A stretch of DNA of 35,816 bases from NCBI GenBank assembly GCA_945902745.1, contig CAMDNE010000028.1, positions 1 through 35,816 on the forward strand, read 5' to 3'. Under the pieces are notes generated by a model, which saw only the letters and a list, made by a program, of their open reading frames with translations, had not been told where the DNA came from and made no database searches. Of this stretch, positions 1 through 19,934 are shown piece after piece. Both the position numbers and the translations under genes were made by a program. Position 1 is the stretch's first letter. Every line of letters starts with the position of its first letter. The DNA comes from Chitinophaga pinensis. Lineage in GTDB: Bacteria > Bacteroidota > Bacteroidia > Flavobacteriales_D > Crocinitomicaceae.

Positions 1-1164
1 GAGCGTAGACCAGAAATTGAACTAGCAGATCTTGTAATATCGATGCTTCCAGCTCGTTTCCATGTTGATGTAGCAAAGGATTGTATTGCCTTAAAAACGA
101 ACCTTATCACTCCTTCATATATTTCGGAAGAAATGAAAGAATTAGATGAGCAAGCAAAAGCTGCAGGAATTATCATCATGAATGAAATTGGTGTTGATCC
201 TGGAATTGATCACATGAGTGCCATGAAAATTATTCATTCAATTCAAGCAAAAGGCGCAACAGTTACTTCATTCAAATCTTTTTGTGGTGGATTAATGGCT
301 CCCGAAAGTGATAACAATCCATGGAATTATAAATTTACATGGAACCCAAGAAATGTCGTTCTTGCCGGTCAAGGTGGTGCATCTTGTTTTATTGACCACA
401 ATGAATATAAATATGTTCCTTATAACAGACTTTTTGGTCGTTTATTCACAACTGGAATAGAAGGATATGGTGAATTTGATGGATATGCAAATCGTGATTC
501 ACTTTCTTACAGAAAAACCTACGGCTTAGAAACAATTCCAACAATTTTCAGAGGGACATTGCGTCGACCTGGATTTTGTCAGGCATGGAATGTATTTATT
601 GAATTAGGAATGACAGATGATTCCTATAAAATGGAAAACTCAGAATTTTTAACACCACGATCTTTTCTAAATGCATTTTTACCATATAGACCATACAGAA
701 GTGTCGAAGACAAATTCAAAGATTTCTTAAGAGAAGACCGACAGGATCTTTATGAAAAATTTGAATGGTTAGGGATTTTTGAAAGTACCACTCCACTTGG
801 AGTATGTGACGCTTCACCAGCGCAAATGTTGGAAAAAATCCTTGTTGGAAAATGGGTGTTAGAACCAGCAGATAAAGACATGCTTGTGATGTATCACGAA
901 TTCGAATATGAATTTCATGGTGAACATCATTCAATTACTTCTTCAATGGTCAATATTGGGGAAGACCACACATTCACCTCTATGTCTAATACTGTTGGAT
1001 TGCCGGTTGCAATTGCCTCAAAAATGATTTTGAACGGTGAATTAACAACAAAAGGGGTTACTCTTCCCATTCAACCTGAAGTTTACAATCCGATATTAGC
1101 AGAATTAGAAACTTTTGATATTCGATTTATCGAGAAAGAGATTCAATTAGATTGTAAAATTTAA
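1..1164 (+). CDS. Saccharopine dehydrogenase-like protein (5' end outside window)
   Basis: The reading frame is open from base 1, so the gene begins upstream and the first ATG at 43 is internal. The 387 visible residues lack the N-terminal Rossmann nucleotide-binding part and cover the end of that domain and the C-terminal catalytic domain. Family-typical stretches are 'NEIGVDPGIDHMSA', 'SFCGGLMAPES' and 'WNPRNVVLAGQGGA'. Family members oxidise or form saccharopine (N6-glutaryl-2-lysine) with NAD(P) in lysine metabolism in the cytoplasm; many bacterial homologues are annotated only by family. Nothing in the visible neighbours (metG downstream, 103 bases away with its own promoter-like element) ties it to a lysine pathway, so the substrate is inferred from family only. 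Confidence 0.85.
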   Translation, partial: ERRPEIELADLVISMLPARFHVDVAKDCIALKTNLITPSYISEEMKELDEQAKAAGIIIMNEIGVDPGIDHMSAMKIIHSIQAKGATVTSFKSFCGGLMAPESDNNPWNYKFTWNPRNVVLAGQGGASCFIDHNEYKYVPYNRLFGRLFTTGIEGYGEFDGYANRDSLSYRKTYGLETIPTIFRGTLRRPGFCQAWNVFIELGMTDDSYKMENSEFLTPRSFLNAFLPYRPYRSVEDKFKDFLREDRQDLYEKFEWLGIFESTTPLGVCDASPAQMLEKILVGKWVLEPADKDMLVMYHEFEYEFHGEHHSITSSMVNIGEDHTFTSMSNTVGLPVAIASKMILNGELTTKGVTLPIQPEVYNPILAELETFDIRFIEKEIQLDCKI

Positions 1165-1215
1165 TTCGCACACCAAAAAACAACAAGCTATATTGATAAT
1201 GTTGCAGAATCATGA

Positions 1216-1245
1216 TTTAAGAATCCTGAATTCTCTGTATCTTTG
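1216..1245 (+). promoter_or_regulatory. Predicted metG promoter
   Basis: A TTTA at 1216-1219 and TATCTTTG at 1238-1245 are separated by 18 bases, close to the Bacteroidota pattern TTTG-N19-TAnnTTTG. The expected start of transcription is about 1252, leaving a leader of roughly 16 bases before the metG ATG. The spacer contains GAATCCTGAATT, which also occurs at 12831-12842. Confidence 0.5.
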
Positions 1246-1267
1246 CCTTTTCAATTGAATTATCACG

Positions 1268-3322
1268 ATGTCAAAAGCAAAATATACCGTTACTGCAGCA
1301 CTTCCTTATGCAAATGGACCTTTACATTTAGGTCACGTAGCAGGAGTTTATCTTCCTGCCGATATTTTCGTGCGATTTTTAAGAATGAATAAGCACGATG
1401 TTGCATTTATATGCGGTAGCGATGAACATGGAGCAGCAATTACATTACGTGCAAAAAAAGAAGGAATAACACCACAAGAAATTGTAGATAAATACAACTC
1501 AATCATTAGTAAAGCTTTTACAGATTTCGATATTTCATTTGATATTTTTCACCGAACATCGTCTGAAATTCACCATAAAACATCACAAGATTTCTTTTTA
1601 AAATTATATGAAAAAGGGAAATTTACAGAAGAAACATCCGAACAATATTACGACGAAGAATACGAACAATTTTTAGCAGATAGATATATTACTGGTGAAT
1701 GTCCTAAGTGTCAAAATCCAAGTGCTTATGGAGATCAATGTGAAAAATGTGGAAGTGATTTAAGTCCAACAGAATTGATCAATCCAACTTCTACTTTAAG
1801 CGGAAAGACACCAGTTTTAAGAACCACTTCACATTGGTATTTACCAATGGCGAATCATGAAGATTGGTTGAGAGAATGGATAAAAGAAGGTAAATTAGAT
1901 GGAATTCAACAACATGATCCAAAGCCTTGGAGAAACCAAGTAATTGGACAATGTATGTCTTGGATTGATGGAGGTTTGCATTCCAGAGCAATGACACGCG
2001 ATTTGGACTGGGGAGTCAAAGTCCCACTTCCAAATGCAGAGGGAAAAGTATTATATGTATGGTTGGATGCGCCAATTGGTTACATTTCAGCTACAAAACA
2101 ATATGCATTAGACAACAATAAGAATTGGGAAGATTATTGGACTGGAGATAGAAAACTGATTCATTTTATTGGAAAAGATAACATTGTTTTTCATGCAGTT
2201 ATATTTCCAATTTTATTGAAAGATCACGGTGATTTAATATTACCTGATAATGTTCCAGCCTATGAATTTTTGAATTTAGAAGGTGATAAATTTTCCACTT
2301 CTAGAAATTGGGCAGTTTGGTTGCATGAATATTTAGCAGCATATCCAGGAAGAGAAGACGAATTGAAATATGTTTTGACATCCATCGCTCCTGAAACAAA
2401 AGATTCAGAATTTACATGGAAAGAATACCAAACTCGAATCAACAGTGAATTAGCCGATATTCTTGGAAATTTTGTGAATCGTGCTTTGGTTTTAACTCAA
2501 AAATATTACGAAGGCAAAGTTCCTGAAAAAGGAGAATTGACAGAAGAAGATCAACTCGTTTTAGCTGAAATAAACGAAATCCCAAAACGTATTAGCAAAC
2601 TCGTATATGCATACAAATTGCGTGATGCTCAAGCAGAAGCGATGAATTTGGCACGACTTGGGAATAAATATTTGGCAGATCAAGAACCTTGGAAAGTTGT
2701 AAAAATTGATCCTAAAAGAGTTGAGACAGTGATGAATATTGCTCTTCAAATCACAGCCAATCTGAGTATTGTTTTGCAACCATTTTTACCAGCAACAGCA
2801 GCTAAATTATCTAATTTCTTGAATTTTAAAAGTTCGAATTGGGAAGATGCTGGAAATGGTGATTTAATGAAAGTTGGAAATCAAACAAATCTGCCAGAAA
2901 TATTATTCCAAAAAATTGAAGACACGTTGGTTGAAGAAGAGGTAAAGAAATTGAAAAATATTGAATTAATGGAATCAAAATTTGACGTACAAAAAGACGA
3001 AGTAACATTTGATGATTTCACAAAAATGGATATTCGTTTAGGAACTATTCTTGAAGCCGAAAAAGTTGAAAAAGCAGATAAATTATTGAAATTACTTGTT
3101 GATACAGGATTGGACAAAAGAACAATCGTTTCTGGAATTGCTGAACATTATTCGCCAGAAGAAATCATTGGTAAAACTGTTCAGGTTTTGATGAATTTAG
3201 CTCCCAGAAAAATCAAAGGCATTGAATCAAAAGGAATGATTTTAATGGCAGAAGATGCTGAAGGAAAATTGAGTTTTATGTCGCCTGAAAAAGGATTTGA
3301 AGCTGGTTGTGGAATACATTGA
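1268..3322 (+). CDS. metG: Methionyl-tRNA synthetase with C-terminal tRNA-binding domain
   Basis: This cytoplasmic class I synthetase charges tRNA-Met with methionine. The HIGH motif is HLGH at residues 20-23, and the KMSKS loop appears as KFSTS at 341-345. A zinc knuckle with two CxxC pairs (CPKC and CEKC) lies near residues 144-162 in the connective domain. An anticodon-binding helical region follows. The last 110 or so residues ('[17 protein letters not shown]' through '[14 protein letters not shown]') form a Trbp111/EMAP-like OB-fold tRNA-binding domain. The length of 684 residues is normal for the form with the appended domain. The start is supported by the family N-terminus and a promoter-like element just upstream. 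The gene appears intact and ordinary. Confidence 0.97.
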
Positions 3323-7204: not shown

Positions 7205-8479
7205 ATGTCAGTATTAGAAATGAAAGTACCAAGTCCAGGAGAATCAATCTCTGAAGTGGAAATAGCACAATGGCTTGTTGCTGATGGAGATTATGTAGAG
7301 AAAGACCAGGCAATTGCTGAAGTTGATTCTGATAAAGCAACATTAGAACTTCCTGCTGAAGATAGCGGAATCATAACATTTAAAGCTGCCGAAGGAGATG
7401 TAGTCAAAGTTGGGCAAGTTGTGTGTTTAATCGATACATCTGCAGCACGACCTTCTGGTCAAGCTCCAAAAGTTGCTGAAAAGCAAGAAGAAGTAAAAGC
7501 TGTTGTTGCTCCTGTTGCTGAAAAAGTTACGACTCCAGTAGCTGTACCTAATCCAGATCCAATTAAAAAAGAAGTTTCTTACGCTTCAGGAACTCCATCA
7601 ATTGCTGCTGCAAAAATAATGTCTGAAAATGGCGTTTCAGCAAATCAATTGAATGGTACAGGTAAAGATGGAAGAATCACGAAACAAGATGTTGTTGCGG
7701 CAATGTCTGCTGGTTTTTCTGCAGCAGATGCCCAAGGTTGGGGCGGTACACGTGATCAATCTCGTGAGAAAATGTCTATGATGCGTCGAAAGATTGCAGA
7801 ACGCTTAGTTGCTGTTAAAAATGAAACAGCGATGTTGACTACTTTCAACGAGGTGGATATGAAACCAATCATGGACCTTCGTGCTAAATACAAGGATGCA
7901 TTTGCAAAACACCATGAAGTGAATTTAGGATTCATGTCATTCTTTACAAAAGCAGTTACTGAAGCATTAAATTTATTCCCTTCTGTTAATGGACAAATTG
8001 AAGGAAACGAAATGATTTTGCACAATTATGCAGATATAGGAATTGCCGTTTCTTCACCAAAAGGATTAATGGTTCCTGTTGTTAGAAATGCAGAACAAAT
8101 GTCGTTGGCTGAAATAGAACGTGAAATTAAACGTTTGGCAATCAAAGCAAGAGATGGAAAGATTACGCCAGATGATATGACTGGTGGAACGTTCACTATC
8201 ACAAATGGTGGTGTGTTTGGCTCTATGTTATCTACACCAATTATAAATCCTCCTCAATCTGCAATTTTAGGAATGCACAACATTGTTGAACGTCCGGTTG
8301 CTATAAATGGAAAAGTTGAAATTCGACCTATTATGTATGTGGCCTTGTCTTATGACCACAGAATCATTGATGGAAAAGAATCAGTTGGATTCTTAGTGAA
8401 AGTGAAAGAAATGTTAGAAAATCCTGAAAGAATGTTGTTTGGAGCGAAAGATCCTTATGCAGTGTTGTTGGGGTTATAA
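7205..8479 (+). CDS. sucB: Dihydrolipoyllysine-residue succinyltransferase (E2)
   Basis: This is the E2 core of the 2-oxoglutarate dehydrogenase complex, transferring succinyl from lipoate to CoA. Domain order is visible: one lipoyl domain (residues 1-80) with the lipoylated lysine in '[13 protein letters not shown]'; an Ala/Pro/Val-rich linker (about 85-130); a peripheral subunit-binding domain ('[14 protein letters not shown]' to '[15 protein letters not shown]', about 131-168); and the catalytic acyltransferase domain (about 190-424). The active-site motif 'YDHRIIDGK' places the catalytic His near 385 and Asp near 389. The 424-residue length is normal. It is co-directional with sucA 29 bases upstream and certainly co-transcribed, and ends at a strong hairpin terminator. 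Confidence 0.97.
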
Positions 8480-9011: not shown

Positions 9012-9996
9012 CGAGAGTTTGAGTATTAGTTAGATCAGGAGAATTTTCATGGCCCCACAAAAGTTTGCTTTTAATATCTATCTTGTAAATCTGTTCCGGA
9101 CGTAATTTCTCCTGCCAGTCATAAGTTGTGCCTGATCGAAAAAAGGTATTTGGATTAAAATGGAAACTGCCCGGATTTTCAGTAATACTTTTTTTCATTT
9201 TGTTGAACTCTGTATTTTCGATTATCTCAATCATCCCCTCCTCATTGATCCCGTTTTTAATTCCCAATAGAAAATGGGTAAGCAGTTTTGCTGATTCCAT
9301 TTTTCTCTCAACTAGATCTTCGTATCTTAAGGTAAGCAAGCAGTCGCGATCAAACTTTGAATCCCCAGATTCAGTCCAATTGAGAGTGTGTTTGTGGTAA
9401 TCCCCAAAATACAAATCTCCTCGAACAAAATAATCAATGAATTGATCCATTGTCAAGTCAGAATCAACGCCTAATAATGGGTGTGATTTGTAAAAAAAAT
9501 ACTGTGAAACCGCTGCACCTTTAGGATCTCTGAAAACATTGATAAACTTTGTCTTAGGGTGTATACTGGCTGCGGGAAGATCTTCTTTGAAACAGTGGAT
9601 ATACCATACACGAGGAAACCCTTTAGTGTGGTCAATGAATTCGAAAAACTTTTCCAAGCCGTATTGTGATGCCATAACCTCAGGCCACGGAATGGTATGA
9701 TGCCCAATATCTCCCGACTTCATTGGGTGCTCTTCAGGATAATCTATGCCCTTCCTTAAGATCTCTGAAACAAATTTCTTCGTTAGGTGCGTCCCTACCT
9801 TTTGATGAGTACTTATGAAAATGTCATTTTCATCGGTATTCCAGCGCAACTGCAATTCTTTTAGAATATCCCTGTCAATAAATGGAGGATACATTTTACC
9901 ATTTACCCTCGCATGTAAGAATCCATGTTCATTTAAAGGCTCAAAAGGCTCAAAAATAGTCAGACCTCCATGGCCGACATGTTGCTCATTACTCAT
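9001..9996 (-). CDS. Sulfotransferase family protein
   Basis: The product matches PAPS-dependent sulfotransferases (Sulfotransfer_1 type). The 5'-phosphosulfate loop is 'STHQKVGTHLTKK' at residues 62-74, in the place of the usual YPKSGTTW, with Lys66 kept. The 3'-phosphate motif is 'VFRDPKGAAVSQYFF' with Arg156 and Ser164 at the canonical eight-residue spacing. No signal peptide is seen, so it is probably cytoplasmic. The 331-residue length resembles small-molecule sulfotransferases, but the acceptor cannot be read from sequence. It sits 19 bases after an O-methyltransferase gene and overlaps the DinB-like gene, so the three products probably act together, perhaps decorating one metabolite. 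Such genes are uncommon in a core Flavobacteriales context. Confidence 0.85.
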   Translation of the reverse strand: MSNEQHVGHGGLTIFEPFEPLNEHGFLHARVNGKMYPPFIDRDILKELQLRWNTDENDIFISTHQKVGTHLTKKFVSEILRKGIDYPEEHPMKSGDIGHHTIPWPEVMASQYGLEKFFEFIDHTKGFPRVWYIHCFKEDLPAASIHPKTKFINVFRDPKGAAVSQYFFYKSHPLLGVDSDLTMDQFIDYFVRGDLYFGDYHKHTLNWTESGDSKFDRDCLLTLRYEDLVERKMESAKLLTHFLLGIKNGINEEGMIEIIENTEFNKMKKSITENPGSFHFNPNTFFRSGTTYDWQEKLRPEQIYKIDIKSKLLWGHENSPDLTNTQTLDVY

Positions 9997-10015: not shown

Positions 10016-10600
10016 TCAAAGAGATGCAACCAACAAACCGCATTCTGTTTCAATTATCGTATGACTAATTCTATTTTCAGGAAACCAATTCAGGAAATTT
10101 AAACATTCTTCCCTTCTATCAGAGACGTTGTCGGCAAGGATCATTGTTCCGGCTCCAATACACCCCTTCTTCAAAAGGGCCATTAACTGGGCATAGTATT
10201 TATTCTTCTGGGCATCAAAAAATACAATATCATAAAAGCTGTCCAGGCCGGCAATCACCTCTTCCGCATCACCCTCAAGCACTGAAACTGGTACTTGAAG
10301 CCGATCCATTCTTTTCTGAGTACTATTAGCAACTTCTGCATCGAACTCGATCGTATCAACAACACTTTTTGAATGGTCCAAACCCATTACAAGGTAAAGT
10401 GTTGAAAGTCCATGAGCAGTGCCGATCTCAAGAATGCGTTGAGGGTTTTTAGCTAACATCAGCGAAGTAAGGATCTTTCCGGTATCTTTACGGATGGGAT
10501 TTCTCCAACCATATCTGCCCTCTGAGTTAGTATAACTTTCACCTTGTTTATCTAATAACTCGAGTTTCTTAATCTCTTCCCAGACTGATTCTATAATCAT
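10016..10600 (-). CDS. Class I SAM-dependent O-methyltransferase (YrrM/CCoAOMT-like)
   Basis: The 194-residue product has the Rossmann methyltransferase signatures. Motif I is 'ILEIGTAHGLSTLYL'; the acidic motif II end is 'VVDTIEFDAE'; and 'YDIVFFDAQKNKYYAQL' is characteristic of the COG4122/O-methyltransferase family 3, where the Asp binds metal and the substrate hydroxyl. 'MILADNVSDRR' matches the family's post-strand motif. Family members methylate catechols, tRNA hydroxyuridine (TrmR) or other small hydroxylated compounds; the exact substrate is unknown. It is the first gene of the operon with the sulfotransferase and DinB-like genes and has its own promoter-like element upstream. A 60-base hand count in this gene gave 40% G+C against 32% in accC. 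Confidence 0.88.
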   Translation of the reverse strand: MIIESVWEEIKKLELLDKQGESYTNSEGRYGWRNPIRKDTGKILTSLMLAKNPQRILEIGTAHGLSTLYLVMGLDHSKSVVDTIEFDAEVANSTQKRMDRLQVPVSVLEGDAEEVIAGLDSFYDIVFFDAQKNKYYAQLMALLKKGCIGAGTMILADNVSDRREECLNFLNWFPENRISHTIIETECGLLVASL

Positions 10601-10619
10601 ATTTTTGATAATTTGAATA

Positions 10620-10652
10620 TAAAATTAACTCATTAAATGAAAAATTCCAAAA
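10620..10652 (-). promoter_or_regulatory. Predicted promoter of the methyltransferase-sulfotransferase-DinB operon
   Basis: Read on the minus strand, TTTTGG (10652-10647) is followed by exactly 19 bases and TAATTTTA (10627-10620). This fits the Bacteroidota TTTG-N19-TAnnTTTG pattern apart from the last base. The predicted transcript starts near 10613 and has a leader of about 13 bases before the ATG at 10600. Confidence 0.55.
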
Positions 10653-10736
10653 CAATCCTTCTTTAATTACAAATTTTTTCCTTAAATTCATTAAAGCATT
10701 CTTTATCTACACACATGATATATTCAATAATTAAAC

Positions 10737-10781
10737 ATTCCCCTCCATCGGAGGGGTGTCAGCCGCAGGTTGACGGGGTGG
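10737..10781 (+). repeat. Left DUF559-associated double-hairpin repeat
   Basis: Hairpin 1 is CCCCTCC (10740-10746), loop ATC, GGAGGGG (10750-10756). Hairpin 2 is GTCAGCC (10758-10764), loop GCA, GGTTGAC (10768-10774), with one G-T wobble. The unit ends in GGGGTGG (10775-10781). It matches the right copy at 41 of 45 positions. Three of the four differences are in loops, and the fourth keeps base pairing. Confidence 0.85.
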
Positions 10782-10873
10782 TTAATTGCGACAACAAGCA
10801 AGGCGTAGTTGGAACCTACCGCCACCAAAATTTTTCTTTAGTTTTTGACCCTAGATCTTTATATACTAAAGTC

Positions 10874-11293
10874 ATGCGGATTAATGGATCCGTACTTAAG
10901 TCACCCATCATCCAAGAATTACCTCAAAACGCTGAACTATTAAAAAGTGCCAGAGAACTGAGACAAGCCCGAAATCTGCCCGAAGTTCTTTTTTGGATGC
11001 AAGTAACAAAAGGAAGATTTCACCAAATTGATTTTGACAGACAAAAAGTAATCGGAAACTATATTGTAGATTTTTATGTCAAACGGTTACGATTAATTAT
11101 TGAAATTGATGGCTCTAGTCATATCGGGAAAGAAGTATACGACCGCAAAAGGCAAAATTATTTAGAAAGTATGGGGTTAAAAGTTTATCGAATAAGTACA
11201 GGGGATATTAAGTATAGATTGGGTTGTGTGTTGAAGGAATTGGAGAAATATATTATTGAAAATTATTCAATGGGGCAAGAAGAGGTGGAATAA
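10874..11293 (+). CDS. DUF559 (Vsr-like) endonuclease domain protein
   Basis: The product carries a DUF559 domain, a PD-(D/E)xK/Vsr-like nuclease fold. Visible markers are 'VLFWMQVTKGRFHQIDFDRQ', then 'NYIVDFYVKRLRLIIEIDGSSH', with the catalytic Asp of VDFYV and the E-x-D-G-x-x-H cluster intact, then 'YDRKRQNYLESMGLKVYRIS'. The frame is open back to 10715, but that extension translates the left repeat, has no family similarity and is rich in repeat-encoded residues. The ATG at 10874 gives 139 residues, near the family norm of about 120-140. Function is not established for the family; nicking or cleavage of structured or mismatched DNA is plausible by fold. Flanking inverted repeats suggest the gene and palindromes form a unit. 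Confidence 0.85.
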   Translation: MRINGSVLKSPIIQELPQNAELLKSARELRQARNLPEVLFWMQVTKGRFHQIDFDRQKVIGNYIVDFYVKRLRLIIEIDGSSHIGKEVYDRKRQNYLESMGLKVYRISTGDIKYRLGCVLKELEKYIIENYSMGQEEVE

Positions 11294-11316
11294 CAGATAT
11301 CAGCTATTGCTGATTA

Positions 11317-11353
11317 AAATTATTTAAGACAATAAAATTGTCTTAAATAATTT
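11317..11353 (+). repeat. Perfect 16-bp AT-rich hairpin
   Basis: AAATTATTTAAGACAA (11317-11332) is the exact reverse complement of 11338-11353, with a 5-base loop TAAAA. A second small hairpin, ATCAGC (11299-11304)/GCTGAT (11309-11314), lies between it and the DUF559 stop codon. The large hairpin abuts the right 45-base repeat with no gap. It lacks a T tract, so it is not a classic terminator. Confidence 0.8.
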
Positions 11354-11398
11354 CCACCCCGTCAGCCTTTGGCTGACACCCCTCCGGTGGAGGGGAAT
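11354..11398 (-). repeat. Right DUF559-associated double-hairpin repeat
   Basis: This copy is inverted relative to the left one. On the minus strand it reads ATTCCCCTCC, loop ACC, GGAGGGG, T, GTCAGCC, loop AAA, GGCTGAC, GGGGTGG. Both stems are perfect here. It ends only about 9 bases from the accBC terminator hairpin. Confidence 0.85.
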
Positions 11399-11402
11399 AA
11401 AT

Positions 11403-11430
11403 AAAAAAGCCGACTCTAAAGAATCGGCTT
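11403..11430 (-). terminator. Rho-independent terminator after accC
   Basis: On the minus strand, AAGCCGA (11430-11424) pairs with TCGGCTT (11413-11407). The stem continues through TTC/GAG pairing around a TTTA loop and is followed by a T tract at 11408-11403. It lies 24 bases past the accC stop and so closes the long minus-strand core operon. Confidence 0.88.
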
Positions 11431-11453
11431 AAGAAAAAAATATAGTCTATTAA

Positions 11454-12788
11454 TTAAAATTCAAATGTTTCCATGAACTTAGTAGTAAAATTCCCTTTTC
11501 TGAAATCTGGGTTATCCATTAATTTCTGATGGAAAGGAATTGTTGTTTTTACACCTTCAATAATGTATTCATCTAATGCTCGCTTCATTTTAAGAATCGC
11601 TTCTTCACGTGTTTGAGCAACGCAAATTAACTTTCCTATCATTGAGTCATAATTCGATGGAATCGTGTATCCAGCGTATGCATGCGTGTCGATACGAACA
11701 CCGTGTCCACCTGGTGAATGGTAAGAAGTTATTTTTCCTGGTGACGGACGAAAATCATTAAATGGATCTTCAGCGTTTATGCGGCATTGAATTGCATGTA
11801 AATGCGGATAATAATTTTTTCCTGAGATTTTTTCTCCAGCAGCCAATTTGATTTGCTCCTTAATCAAGTCATAATCAATAACTTCTTCAGTGATTGTGTG
11901 TTCCACTTGAATACGTGTATTCATTTCCATGAAATAGAAATCTCTGTTTTTATCAACCAAAAATTCTACAGTTCCTACACCTTCATATTTAACAGCTTTT
12001 GCTGCTTTAATAGCTGCTTCTCCCATTTTCTCTCTTAACTCTTCAGTCATGAAAGGAGATGGAGTTTCTTCTACTAATTTTTGATGACGACGTTGTATTG
12101 AGCAATCACGTTCAGATAAGTGACAAGCATTTCCATATTGATCCCCTGCGATTTGAATTTCAATATGACGTGGTTCTTCAATGTATTTTTCCATGTACAA
12201 ACCGTCATTTCCAAATGCAGCTCCCGCTTCTTGTCTTGCAGAATCCCATGCAGCTTGCAGATCTTCTTCTTTCCAAACGATGCGCATTCCTTTTCCTCCA
12301 CCACCAGCGGTAGCTTTTAGGATAACTGGGTAAACAACTTGTTTTGCATTTTTGATGCAATCTTCCATGTCCTTAATAAGACCTACAGAACCAGGAATGC
12401 AAGGAACACCAGCTTTAATCATTGTTGCTTTCGCATTGGCTTTGTCGCCCATTCCAGAAATTTGCTCTGGTGTTGCACCAATAAATTTGATTCCGTGCTC
12501 CTGACATACTTTTGAAAATTTCTCATTTTCAGAAAGGAAGCCATAACCAGGATGGATTGCATCAGCATTTGTAATTTCTGCTGCAGCAATAATATTAGCA
12601 ATTGATAAATATGATTTTGAACTTACAGGAGGTCCAATACATACCGCTTCATCAGCAAAACGAACAGGCAAACTATCTTTGTCGGCAGTTGAATAAACGG
12701 CAACAGTTTTAATACCCATCTCTTTACACGTGCGAATAATACGCAATGCTATTTCACCTCTATTGGCAATTAATATTTTTTTGAACAT
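11454..12788 (-). CDS. accC: Acetyl-CoA carboxylase, biotin carboxylase subunit
   Basis: This ATP-grasp enzyme carboxylates the biotin of AccB with bicarbonate, the first half-reaction of malonyl-CoA synthesis. The N-terminal pre-ATP-grasp domain starts '[19 protein letters not shown]'. The glycine-rich ATP loop is '[12 protein letters not shown]', and catalytic and biotin-site residues lie in '[19 protein letters not shown]' and '[16 protein letters not shown]'. The C-terminal biotin carboxylase domain follows with '[17 protein letters not shown]'. The 444-residue length is standard. It is the last gene of the minus-strand run, 63 bases after accB, with a small repeat in that gap. The carboxyltransferase genes accA and accD are not in the window. 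Confidence 0.97.
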
Positions 12789-18823: not shown

Positions 18824-18876
18824 ATGAAGTTCACGAAATAGGGGATATAAAAGAAAAAAATCAACTATTCACTCTC

Positions 18877-18894
18877 GCTCCGCTGCAGTTGCAC
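18877..18894 (+). repeat. Half REP palindrome
   Basis: GCTCCGCTGCAGTTGCAC matches the first 18 bases of the REP unit, then diverges into AT-rich sequence. It cannot form the full hairpin and appears to be a decayed or truncated copy. Confidence 0.75.
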
Positions 18895-18915
18895 TTTATT
18901 AATTCCAATCTCTTC

Positions 18916-18941
18916 GCTCCGCTGCAGTTGTACTGCTGCGG
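18916..18941 (+). repeat. REP palindrome, forward
   Basis: After a 5' GCT foot, the arms CCGCTGCAGT and ACTGCTGCGG pair over 10 positions with one T-T mismatch and a TGT loop. It is the exact reverse complement of 19010-19035, with which it forms an inverted pair. Confidence 0.9.
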
Positions 18942-19009
18942 CACATACTAAACACTAATCAATTCTTATCTGCAATCTTAAAGAATTTTAAGATGTTCTT
19001 ATGAAAATT

Positions 19010-19035
19010 CCGCAGCAGTACAACTGCAGCGGAGC
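19010..19035 (-). repeat. REP palindrome, reverse
   Basis: This is an exact reverse complement of 18916-18941, 68 bases away. It lies 78 bases upstream of the transposase ATG. Confidence 0.9.
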
Positions 19036-19113
19036 AATGTTAGAAAGAATTCATTCTGCAGTAATAAACCTTTTGCCGAATTCTATTTCAAAAAATATGA
19101 TTAACTTAATATA

Positions 19114-19689
19114 ATGCAGCAAGGAGTCAAACAAAACATTAAAAAAAATAGCAGTTATTTTTTAACCCTTACGGTGGTGGAATGGTTAGATGTATTCTCT
19201 CGAAAAAATCATAAAGACGCAATAATTGATTCTTTACGGTATTGCATAAAACAAAAGGGATTGAATGTATATTCCTATTGTTTAATGACCAACCATCTTC
19301 ACCTCATTGTTAACTGCAATGAACCCTTCCAACTGAGTAATGTTATTCGTGATTTCAAAAGACATACGGTAAAAACAATCATTCATCAAATTATCAATGA
19401 GCCTGAAAGTAGAAGAAAATGGTTATTACGTGAATTTCAAGAAGCTGGTGAACAAAATTCAAGAAACAAATCCTATAAGTTTTGGCAAACGGGTAACCAT
19501 GCAATTGAACTCTATAATGAAAAATTTGTTTGGGATAAAATCAATTACATTCACAAGAATCCCGTTGAAGAAAAATTTGTTATCAATCCTGAAGAATGGA
19601 TTTATTCATCAGCCTCTAATTATTTATTGGGTACAGGGATTTTGGAAGAAGTGCATTGTTTGGAGTCAAGATTACAAACAATTAGGTGA
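19114..19689 (+). CDS. REP-associated tyrosine transposase (RAYT)
   Basis: This single-domain HUH endonuclease belongs to the Y1_Tnp/IS200-like superfamily. The HUH motif is His61-Leu-His63 in 'MTNHLHLIV', and the catalytic tyrosine is Tyr145 in 'KINYIHKNPVEEKFV', the RAYT-typical YIHxNPV motif. A 'YKFWQTGNHAIELYN' stretch precedes it, as in the family. RAYTs cut and join single-stranded REP hairpins and are usually single-copy, domesticated genes that spread REP elements rather than themselves. The 191-residue length is normal, and the reading frame is intact. The palindromes around it are surely its substrates by family precedent. Confidence 0.93.
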   Translation: MQQGVKQNIKKNSSYFLTLTVVEWLDVFSRKNHKDAIIDSLRYCIKQKGLNVYSYCLMTNHLHLIVNCNEPFQLSNVIRDFKRHTVKTIIHQIINEPESRRKWLLREFQEAGEQNSRNKSYKFWQTGNHAIELYNEKFVWDKINYIHKNPVEEKFVINPEEWIYSSASNYLLGTGILEEVHCLESRLQTIR

Positions 19690-19706
19690 ATGATGAAAAT
19701 TTTATG

Positions 19707-19732
19707 CCGCAGCAGTGCAACTGCAGCGGAGC
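19707..19732 (-). repeat. REP palindrome, reverse, after the RAYT stop
   Basis: The same 26-base unit in reverse orientation starts 18 bases after the transposase stop codon. Its loop reads TGC instead of TGT when viewed in the forward sense; the stems are unchanged. Confidence 0.9.
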
Positions 19733-19819
19733 ACAGATAAACGTCATTTTAAATAATTGTTAGATCTAGCATAATCAATAATTTGATCAATTTCAAGTGA
19801 TGCTAGAGAATATACTACC

Positions 19820-19845
19820 GCTCCGCTGCAGTTGTACTGCTGCGG
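19820..19845 (+). repeat. REP palindrome, forward
   Basis: This copy is identical to 18916-18941, with the TGT loop. It pairs head-to-head with 19892-19917 across 46 bases. Confidence 0.9.
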
Positions 19846-19891
19846 ATCTTAAAAGTTTTAATTCTTTTAGTTGATCTCTTCATGATGTTTT

Positions 19892-19917
19892 CCGCAGCAG
19901 TGCAACTGCAGCGGAGC
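19892..19917 (-). repeat. REP palindrome, reverse
   Basis: This copy is in reverse orientation with the TGC loop, identical to 19707-19732. It lies 17 bases past the stop codon of the large minus-strand gene and may act as its transcript's 3' hairpin. Confidence 0.9.
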
Positions 19918-19934
19918 AAAACAATATTGATTTA

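Follow-up and report, generated by a model that had tools for sequence, protein, structure and literature searches.

Bacterial genomes often contain palindromic repeats, and the locus described here raises the question of what a DUF559 gene is doing between two inverted copies of a 45-base double hairpin. The window, that is, the whole stretch of DNA that was analysed, is one 35,816-base contig of a 3.46-Mb genome, and the original prediction for it was a layout like that of REP sequences and their RAYT enzymes, with a nuclease in place of the transposase. From the evidence set out below, the feature is on balance probably a complete, mobile cassette of ~660 bases (unit, DUF559 gene, inverted unit), with a homing-type nuclease and hairpin ends. 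Its parts are listed in Table 1.

Table 1. Coordinates of the DUF559 gene and the double-hairpin units in the window
Feature	Position	Strand	Remarks
Longest DUF559 reading frame, 192 aa	10715..11293	+	Starts upstream of left unit and reads through it
DUF559 nuclease, from likely start ATG 10874, 139 aa	10874..11293	+	PD-(D/E)XK Vsr/EDxHD-like fold (predicted)
Left double-hairpin unit	10737..10781	+	ATT, outer hairpin, T, inner hairpin, GGGGTGG; tag points at gene
Left unit, outer hairpin	10740-10756	+	CCCCTCC-ATC-GGAGGGG
Left unit, inner hairpin	10758-10774	+	GTCAGCC-GCA-GGTTGAC
Left unit, tag	10775-10781	+	GGGGTGG, toward gene
Right double-hairpin unit	11354..11398	-	Inverted copy of left unit
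Right unit, tag	11354-11360		CCACCCC (+ strand letters)
Right unit, inner hairpin	11361-11377		GTCAGCC-TTT-GGCTGAC (+ strand letters), then A
Right unit, outer hairpin	11379-11395		CCCCTCC-GGT-GGAGGGG (+ strand letters), then AAT

The two arms are 45 nucleotides each and 91% complementary, the longest inverted pair listed for the window, in agreement with the 41 of 45 identical positions that had been predicted. Folded as single-stranded DNA and read toward the gene, both units form a pair of hairpins with 7-bp stems and 3-base loops, with GGGGTGG after them, again as claimed beforehand, at -10.8 kcal/mol for the left unit and -14.4 kcal/mol for the right (z -2.5 and -4.1 relative to shuffled sequence). 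For the right unit the other strand gives an equally good fold (-14.3 kcal/mol), whereas the left unit reaches -9.4 kcal/mol there with only the outer hairpin complete, because the G-T pair of its inner hairpin turns into A-C. The differences between the units had likewise been described correctly: of the four, loop 1 holds one (ATC/ACC) and loop 2 holds two (GCA/AAA), and the last lies in a stem, where a G-T pair remains. The right unit lies 10 bases from a terminator-like hairpin at 11409-11428 (by eye) at the 3' end of a biotin carboxylase gene. Chance hairpins are ruled out by the z-scores of the folds, by the flank-repeat statistics against control genes, and by the counts of second-hairpin stems against shuffles given below. 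Termination is rejected as the main role of the units, as accC has a presumed terminator hairpin of its own apart from the unit, and genomes that are free of the element have similar terminators after accC. Nor did a search of 10600-11500 against known RNA families at permissive E-values place the units in one, its seven matches all falling under the gathering score. Elsewhere in the window, positions 18871-19928 hold a Y1 (IS200-like) transposase gene (19114-19689; PF01797, E 2.6e-7) bordered by several inverted copies of a GC-rich palindrome of the CTCCGCTGCAGTTGTACTGCTGCGG type, a RAYT-like element.

The gene between the units matches PF04480 (DUF559) with E 4e-26 and 91.5 bits against a curated cut-off of 20.6, and the same Pfam search gave no match to the Y1/HUH transposase family PF01797. 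Its longest reading frame also reads through the left unit, as happens in the in-frame cases described further on, and the coding part likely begins at the in-frame ATG at 10874. Numbered from there, the candidate catalytic residues are D66, E77, D79, and H83. The D..ExDG..H residues are intact, as the original prediction had it, and in an alignment of 10 sequences E77, D79, G80, and H83 do not vary and D66 hardly does. The protein matches PDB entry 3hrl with E 2.6e-14. A structure model of the 139-aa protein aligned with nine relatives reached a pLDDT of 84, compared with 43 for a single-sequence model, and Foldseek returned 3hrl (a putative endonuclease-like protein from Neisseria gonorrhoeae) as its best solved fold, followed by the homing endonuclease I-Bth0305I (catalytic domain, 3r3p; E 8e-5, TM 0.79 by target), and, next among nucleases, Escherichia coli Vsr (1vsr, E 0.019). 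As modelled, the predicted DUF559 fold is thus closer to I-Bth0305I than to Vsr.

In a first alternative, the protein is a Vsr-type mismatch-repair nicking enzyme associated with methylation of cytosine, and the hairpins are intergenic repeats or terminators that have nothing to do with it. A precedent of that kind exists in Caulobacter, where a DUF559-domain protein, VsrA, is reported to be responsible for an SOS response upon loss of a solitary cytosine methylase (PMC12907096). The window's genome, which has one further DUF559 gene on a separate contig, gave no match to the cytosine methylase family PF00145 in a search that was positive in 10 of 14 known genomes used as a control, and a role in VSP repair was rejected on this ground. 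A Vsr-type enzyme also gives no place to insertion in frame in housekeeping genes, and it stands against the finding that hairpin flanks are far commoner at DUF559 genes than at control genes, both of which are set out below. We regard this alternative as very improbable.

It is clear from our results that the anatomy recurs well beyond the window. The DUF559 domain was present in 30 of 60 related genomes with a patchy distribution, and 171 of 296 genomes of the phylum had a PF04480 match. The 450 bases before the domain and the 450 bases after it were scored for their best inverted repeat without gaps, with cut-offs set at the 95th and 99th percentiles of 2775 permuted left-right pairs; from 138 loci, 137 had the domain, 117 of these were stand-alone genes with more than 80% coverage, and 111 had 300 bases on both sides. 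Among these 111 stand-alone genes, 71 exceeded the lower cut-off and 39 the higher, compared with 13 and 3 of 446 control genes, a set drawn without host-by-host matching (Fisher p 5e-47 and 7e-27, respectively). The three controls above the higher cut-off were two unit-bearing regions and the Y1 transposase gene of the window. The best-scoring arms were mostly hairpins of a C-run and a G-run, the exact letters of which vary by locus, and 40 of the 111 genes had no flank repeat above the 95th-percentile cut-off. The pattern extends outside Bacteroidota, where 14 of 18 loci exceeded the lower and 11 the higher cut-off, in genomes picked for holding a unit, not for its adjacency to the gene, and with flanks of at least 80 bases allowed. 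The palindrome flanks that had been expected at related DUF559 loci are therefore frequent, and empty sites were found as well.

The units themselves are dispersed over many phyla with a common core, CCCCTCC-loop-GGAGGGGTG-variable hairpin-GGGGTGG. A scan of named genomes with CCTCC, GGAGGGGTG, and GGGGTGG fixed and the loop and second hairpin free returned at least 118 stretches, and the phyla among the matches listed include Bacteroidota, Acidobacteria, Chlamydiota, Cyanobacteria, Planctomycetes, Proteobacteria, Clostridia, and candidate phyla, with the qualification that many of the unit-bearing records are metagenome bins whose species labels are possibly wrong. Among the matches listed, CC precedes the pattern in 141 of 144 copies though it was not demanded, and the second hairpin is rewritten nearly everywhere, giving 95 distinct strings. 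Pairing is nevertheless retained: an unbroken stem of at least 4 bp, with G-T counted, was present in 59 of the 95 (mean 5.4 and maximum 13 in 200 shuffles), and a Watson-Crick stem of at least 5 bp with at most one mismatch in 48 of the 95 (mean 6.4 and maximum 13 when the free middle was shuffled 500 times). Pairing above the shuffles in strings that are otherwise rewritten implies that the core letters and the pairing are kept, rather than the sequence of the second hairpin.

Most of these units are solo, as DUF559 was found in only 10 of the 118 listed stretches, in all of them within 445 bases of the unit and in nine within 130 bases, while profile search found none in the other 108; units with and without an adjacent gene had been proposed for counting, and this is the outcome outside the window's genome. 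Among the matches listed, 22 neighboring pairs of units lie less than 600 bases apart, 10 facing inward, 6 outward, and 6 in tandem, and DUF559 lies between the units in three of the 10 inward-facing pairs; at one locus (L165), the adjacent unit faces away from the gene. Within the phylum, the pattern was present in 35 of 296 genomes and a reversed control pattern in none, with up to 18 pattern matches per genome, a few of them overlapping, as solo or paired units. A PF04480 match was found in 29 of the 35 unit-bearing genomes versus 142 of the 261 others (p 0.0016; counts that include weak matches and domains of long proteins) and in 39 of 46 unit-bearing genomes picked from the 118 listed stretches, which leaves 6 of 35 and 7 of 46 unit-bearing genomes with no DUF559 match. 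In the window's own genome, by contrast with these, a search allowing three mismatches and a BLAST of all contigs gave no unit beyond the left and right copies, so that the dispersed copies looked for there did not materialize. The REP/RAYT-like layout thus stands insofar as DUF559 genes are often flanked by hairpins, units are dispersed solo and in pairs in other genomes, and unit type follows nuclease clade apart from some exceptions (see below), and falls short insofar as the window's genome has no dispersed copies.

Several stretches hold more than one unit, alternating or in tandem (L184 2231-3110, L185 5291-6183, and L125 1914-5222). In a second genus, the solo units at ~7920-8013 and 9280-9372 of one stretch (L379, genome G335) share ~50 bases of similarity on their inner sides (by eye), which suggests that they are part of a non-autonomous element longer than the unit alone. 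In the same genus, three units of one 11-kb stretch coincide with breaks in BLAST matches to relatives; there are other differences there too, and because more than the unit differs at those sites, the breaks lend weak support to insertion.

The abundance of solo units also invites a reading in which another enzyme, such as a RAYT, spreads the units as REP-like repeats and DUF559 genes simply gather at the same permissive sites. The 108 listed stretches lacking the gene would fit, as would the presence of a Y1 transposase element with inverted palindromes of its own in the same window. The palindromes of that element, however, differ from the units, and such an account has to accommodate DUF559 genes flanked by matched pairs of inverted units, packages of hairpin, DUF559, and hairpin that sit inside genes as a single insert, and a tendency of unit type to follow the DUF559 clade. 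We give it little credence.

This last tendency was examined in a tree of 124 DUF559 domains and 106 columns (tree 1), built by a quick method with many forks unresolved and leaving aside three duplicate loci (L313, L322, and L324) and a shortened gene (L177). By motif, 17 genes carry the unit type T1, and 13 of them fall inside one 19-row clade (SH-aLRT 97) that spans Bacteroidota, Chlorobiota, Pseudomonadota (Serratia), and Actinomycetota (a propionibacterium) and has outer loops of 2-3 bases wherever a T1 unit is readable. The other six rows of this clade are five one-sided copies from the accC site of the window's genus, with a diverged T1 unit, and L155, whose T1 match is 445 bases away from the gene. 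Three further T1 genes (L100, L180, and L283), together with L165 and L264, fall in a poorly supported ten-row group (SH-aLRT 80) that holds other units too; these five have the same core with an outer loop of 7-8 bases. One T1 gene (L328) lies outside both groups. A 12-row clade of the window's family (support 95) contains all five genes with T2 units, which have a short spacer. On the tree, 19 T1 labels (the 17 by motif plus L155 and L165 by hand) need 5 changes, compared with a mean of 18 and a minimum of 13 in 1000 shuffles; the 17 motif labels alone need 6. Four genomes carry one T1-clade and one T2-clade gene each, with both unit types matched by motif in two of them (G003 and G021), while in the window's genome and G006 the second unit is T2-like by eye only. 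A Mantel-type test (81 loci, with 3042 pairs from different families) gave a Spearman coefficient of -0.141, with 1 of 2000 permutations as low, which is significant but weak. As judged from these sequence comparisons, unit type therefore tends to follow nuclease clade, with exceptions. Such a link fits recognition of the hairpins by the nuclease, but co-inheritance of a gene and its ends could equally yield the same pattern; that the core has been kept over great divergence argues for function.

Filled and empty sites are both found downstream of accC. In the window's genus, 21 genomes are readable there, with a unit and DUF559 present in 9 and absent in 12, and the gene order beyond accC is partly conserved (tpx, sucB, and sucA, named by eye; the biotin carboxylase itself is supported by Pfam). 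The filled arrangement is accC-[unit-DUF559-unit]-tpx in G003 and the empty one accC-tpx in G002, G008, G011, and G012; on the tpx side, the flank of G003 gives a close alignment with G002 and G008, while the terminator side has diverged. No target duplication was readable in this filled/empty comparison, because divergence blurs the ends of the insertion. A clade of five species in the window's genus (L035 and L037-L040) carries at this site a DUF559 gene with a longer N-terminus and only the accC-side unit, which is diverged and in most of the five altered in both arms of the outer stem (CCCCTCTT/AAGAGGGG replacing CCCCTCC/GGAGGGG), and these are possibly a decayed or domesticated form. A single shared site in 9 of 21 genomes would also fit inheritance in place of recent movement. 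At the strain level, comparisons with plasmids, phages, and E. coli turned up no polymorphic copy: the L171 protein matched 36 plasmid records, all below 60% identity, its DNA matched none in E. coli, and the window's protein matched 3 phage records.

DUF559 domains also lie in frame inside other genes. Long frames with DUF559 were read in 18 cases, one of which (L043), with a weak domain, is not counted. The L015 frame aligns to methionine synthase (9ssp) at residues 355-757 and 772-1262 with a 3hrl-like domain in between, whereas in 52 relatives, among them the window's genome, the gap between the two halves is -15 to 24 bases; methionine synthase matches were present in 56 genomes, of which 52 were paired by script and four (G055, G428, G432, and G437) were read as 6-15 bases apart. 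Likewise, the L211 frame aligns to leucyl-tRNA synthetase (1h3n) at 148-236 and 240-581, with 160 residues that include DUF559 between them. Pfam places DUF559 between HSDR_N and SWI2_SNF2 in three HsdR frames and, in two genomes, between two Type_ISP_C stretches, the second of which begins at profile position 180 or 182; in an HsdM-like frame the domain directly follows a shortened match to N6_Mtase, and in another frame it has TPR on one side and SpoIIE on the other. The hosts were named through PDB (L015 and L211), through Pfam (L217, L231, L215, L230, L021, L209, and L098), or by eye (L210, L212, L214, L218, and L222), and three further frames are better called fusions than proven inserts: L225 and L165, in which DUF559 is at one end of the host frame, and L125, which has only unit-coded peptides on its N-terminal side. 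Pfam matches at E up to 1e-5 on ten long DUF559 frames list no intein domain; the methionine synthase and leucyl-tRNA synthetase frames were compared with PDB. Of 11 junction pairs, six have stems of at least 6 bp on both sides (L218, L215, L217, L222, L231, and L021) and four on one side (L015, L214, L230, and L098), and neither junction of the leucyl-tRNA synthetase insert L211 has a clear hairpin. A second kind of nuclease was seen in L231, where a GIY-YIG domain (PF01541, E 1.3e-14; aa 251-317 of frame 175-3315 +) lies in frame in the DUF559-bearing HsdR gene near the insertion point of DUF559 in L215 (by eye), and in-frame nuclease insertion may thus not be limited to DUF559. At G383:C7:32778-34178, two DUF559 matches ~1 kb apart each have a 639-aa open frame.

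The inserted domains group by host gene, with four HsdR rows at support 99, a pair from leucyl-tRNA synthetase at 91, and a pair from methionine synthase at 90, and the two Type ISP cases fall on separate branches, L098 beside T1 genes and L209 beside L230. It is here that the strongest rival has to be weighed, namely, that the element is a plain homing endonuclease gene that cuts the empty allele and is copied by break repair, with the hairpins as passengers that act as terminators, insulators, or safe in-frame ends. The grouping by host, the same methionine synthase linker used in two genomes (by eye), the leucyl-tRNA synthetase insert with no clear hairpins, and the match of the predicted fold to I-Bth0305I all speak for such a gene, and published work has already placed a DUF559 gene in the EDxHD homing family, in the context of inteins (PMC9403480). 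The HsdR group, on the other hand, occupies two insertion points (L215 versus L217, L222, and L231), and plain homing leaves unexplained both the dispersed solo and paired units that lack a gene and the conservation of the core across phyla amid rewriting of the second hairpin. We therefore consider plain homing unlikely, though it deserves more weight than the other alternatives.

Returning to the reading of the feature as a mobile cassette, in-frame cassettes in conserved genes together with a homing-like fold make the enzyme look homing-like rather than transposase-like. We infer that the cassette moves, that the enzyme has a role in this and recognizes the hairpins, and that movement proceeds by copying. 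The homing-type PD-(D/E)XK nuclease would break the target DNA, and repair or a single-strand step would then copy the cassette into the broken target. The two inward-facing units would mark the ends of the cassette and may be read by the nuclease or by a partner. Units that stand alone, and pairs with no gene between them, would have derived from such cassettes by decay or as non-autonomous forms on which the machinery acts in trans. A broader reading is conceivable, though we hold it with considerable reserve: mobile DNA of a class present throughout bacteria, in which a nuclease of Vsr/EDxHD type rather than a transposase recognizes a double-hairpin end and spreads both cassettes and gene-less units, and which is able to enter housekeeping genes in frame with no splicing, the hairpin ends being read as tolerated short peptides. 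Were that so, at least some orphan families of palindromic repeats would gain the enzyme that they lack. A second class of enzyme tied to palindromes, if real, would make the spread of palindromic repeats directly testable, the in-frame inserts of methionine synthase and leucyl-tRNA synthetase would illustrate how mobile elements gain entry to housekeeping genes with no device for splicing, and a role would be found for DUF559, still of "unknown function" in Pfam.

No published description of hairpin-flanked DUF559 genes was found in a literature search conducted mostly at the level of titles and abstracts, with subscription papers and preprints outside its scope. The feature encodes a DUF559 protein with an EDxHD-like predicted fold and is neither a RAYT/REP element nor a CGTC REP. 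As with REP/REPIN sequences and RAYT, a gene lies between inverted palindromic units, solo units and gene-less pairs are present in some genomes, and the distribution is sporadic; unlike RAYT, which is a Y1/HUH transposase, the enzyme is a PD-(D/E)XK DUF559 nuclease, neither strand of either 45-base unit contains the GTAG of REP sequences (by eye), the cassette is found in frame in conserved genes, and the window's genome lacks solo units. Small hairpin elements are also known from mitochondria, where double-hairpin elements and GC clusters have spread through intergenic DNA; those elements are organellar. The likeness to EDxHD homing endonucleases rests on I-Bth0305I being the closest solved fold to the model after 3hrl and on the ExD..H residues, but, unlike I-Bth0305I, the DUF559 protein is small and has a single domain, its gene has hairpin flanks with no intron or intein splicing part seen, and solo units are dispersed elsewhere. 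The CGTC REPs are a large group apparently without a dedicated transposase, characterized by an unpaired CGTC tag, a stem of 8-9 bp starting with A-T pairs, and a short unpaired tail (Di Nocera 2013, PMC3733652); the letters CGTC occur in the units, but GTC is paired there and the stem is 7 bp and starts with G-C, so membership in that group was rejected. Palindromes in frame in protein genes are shared with the Rickettsia palindromic elements, which are described as in-frame fusions to host genes (PMC10969869). What distinguishes the cassette from both the Rickettsia elements and the CGTC REPs is that it carries a nuclease gene between its palindromes.
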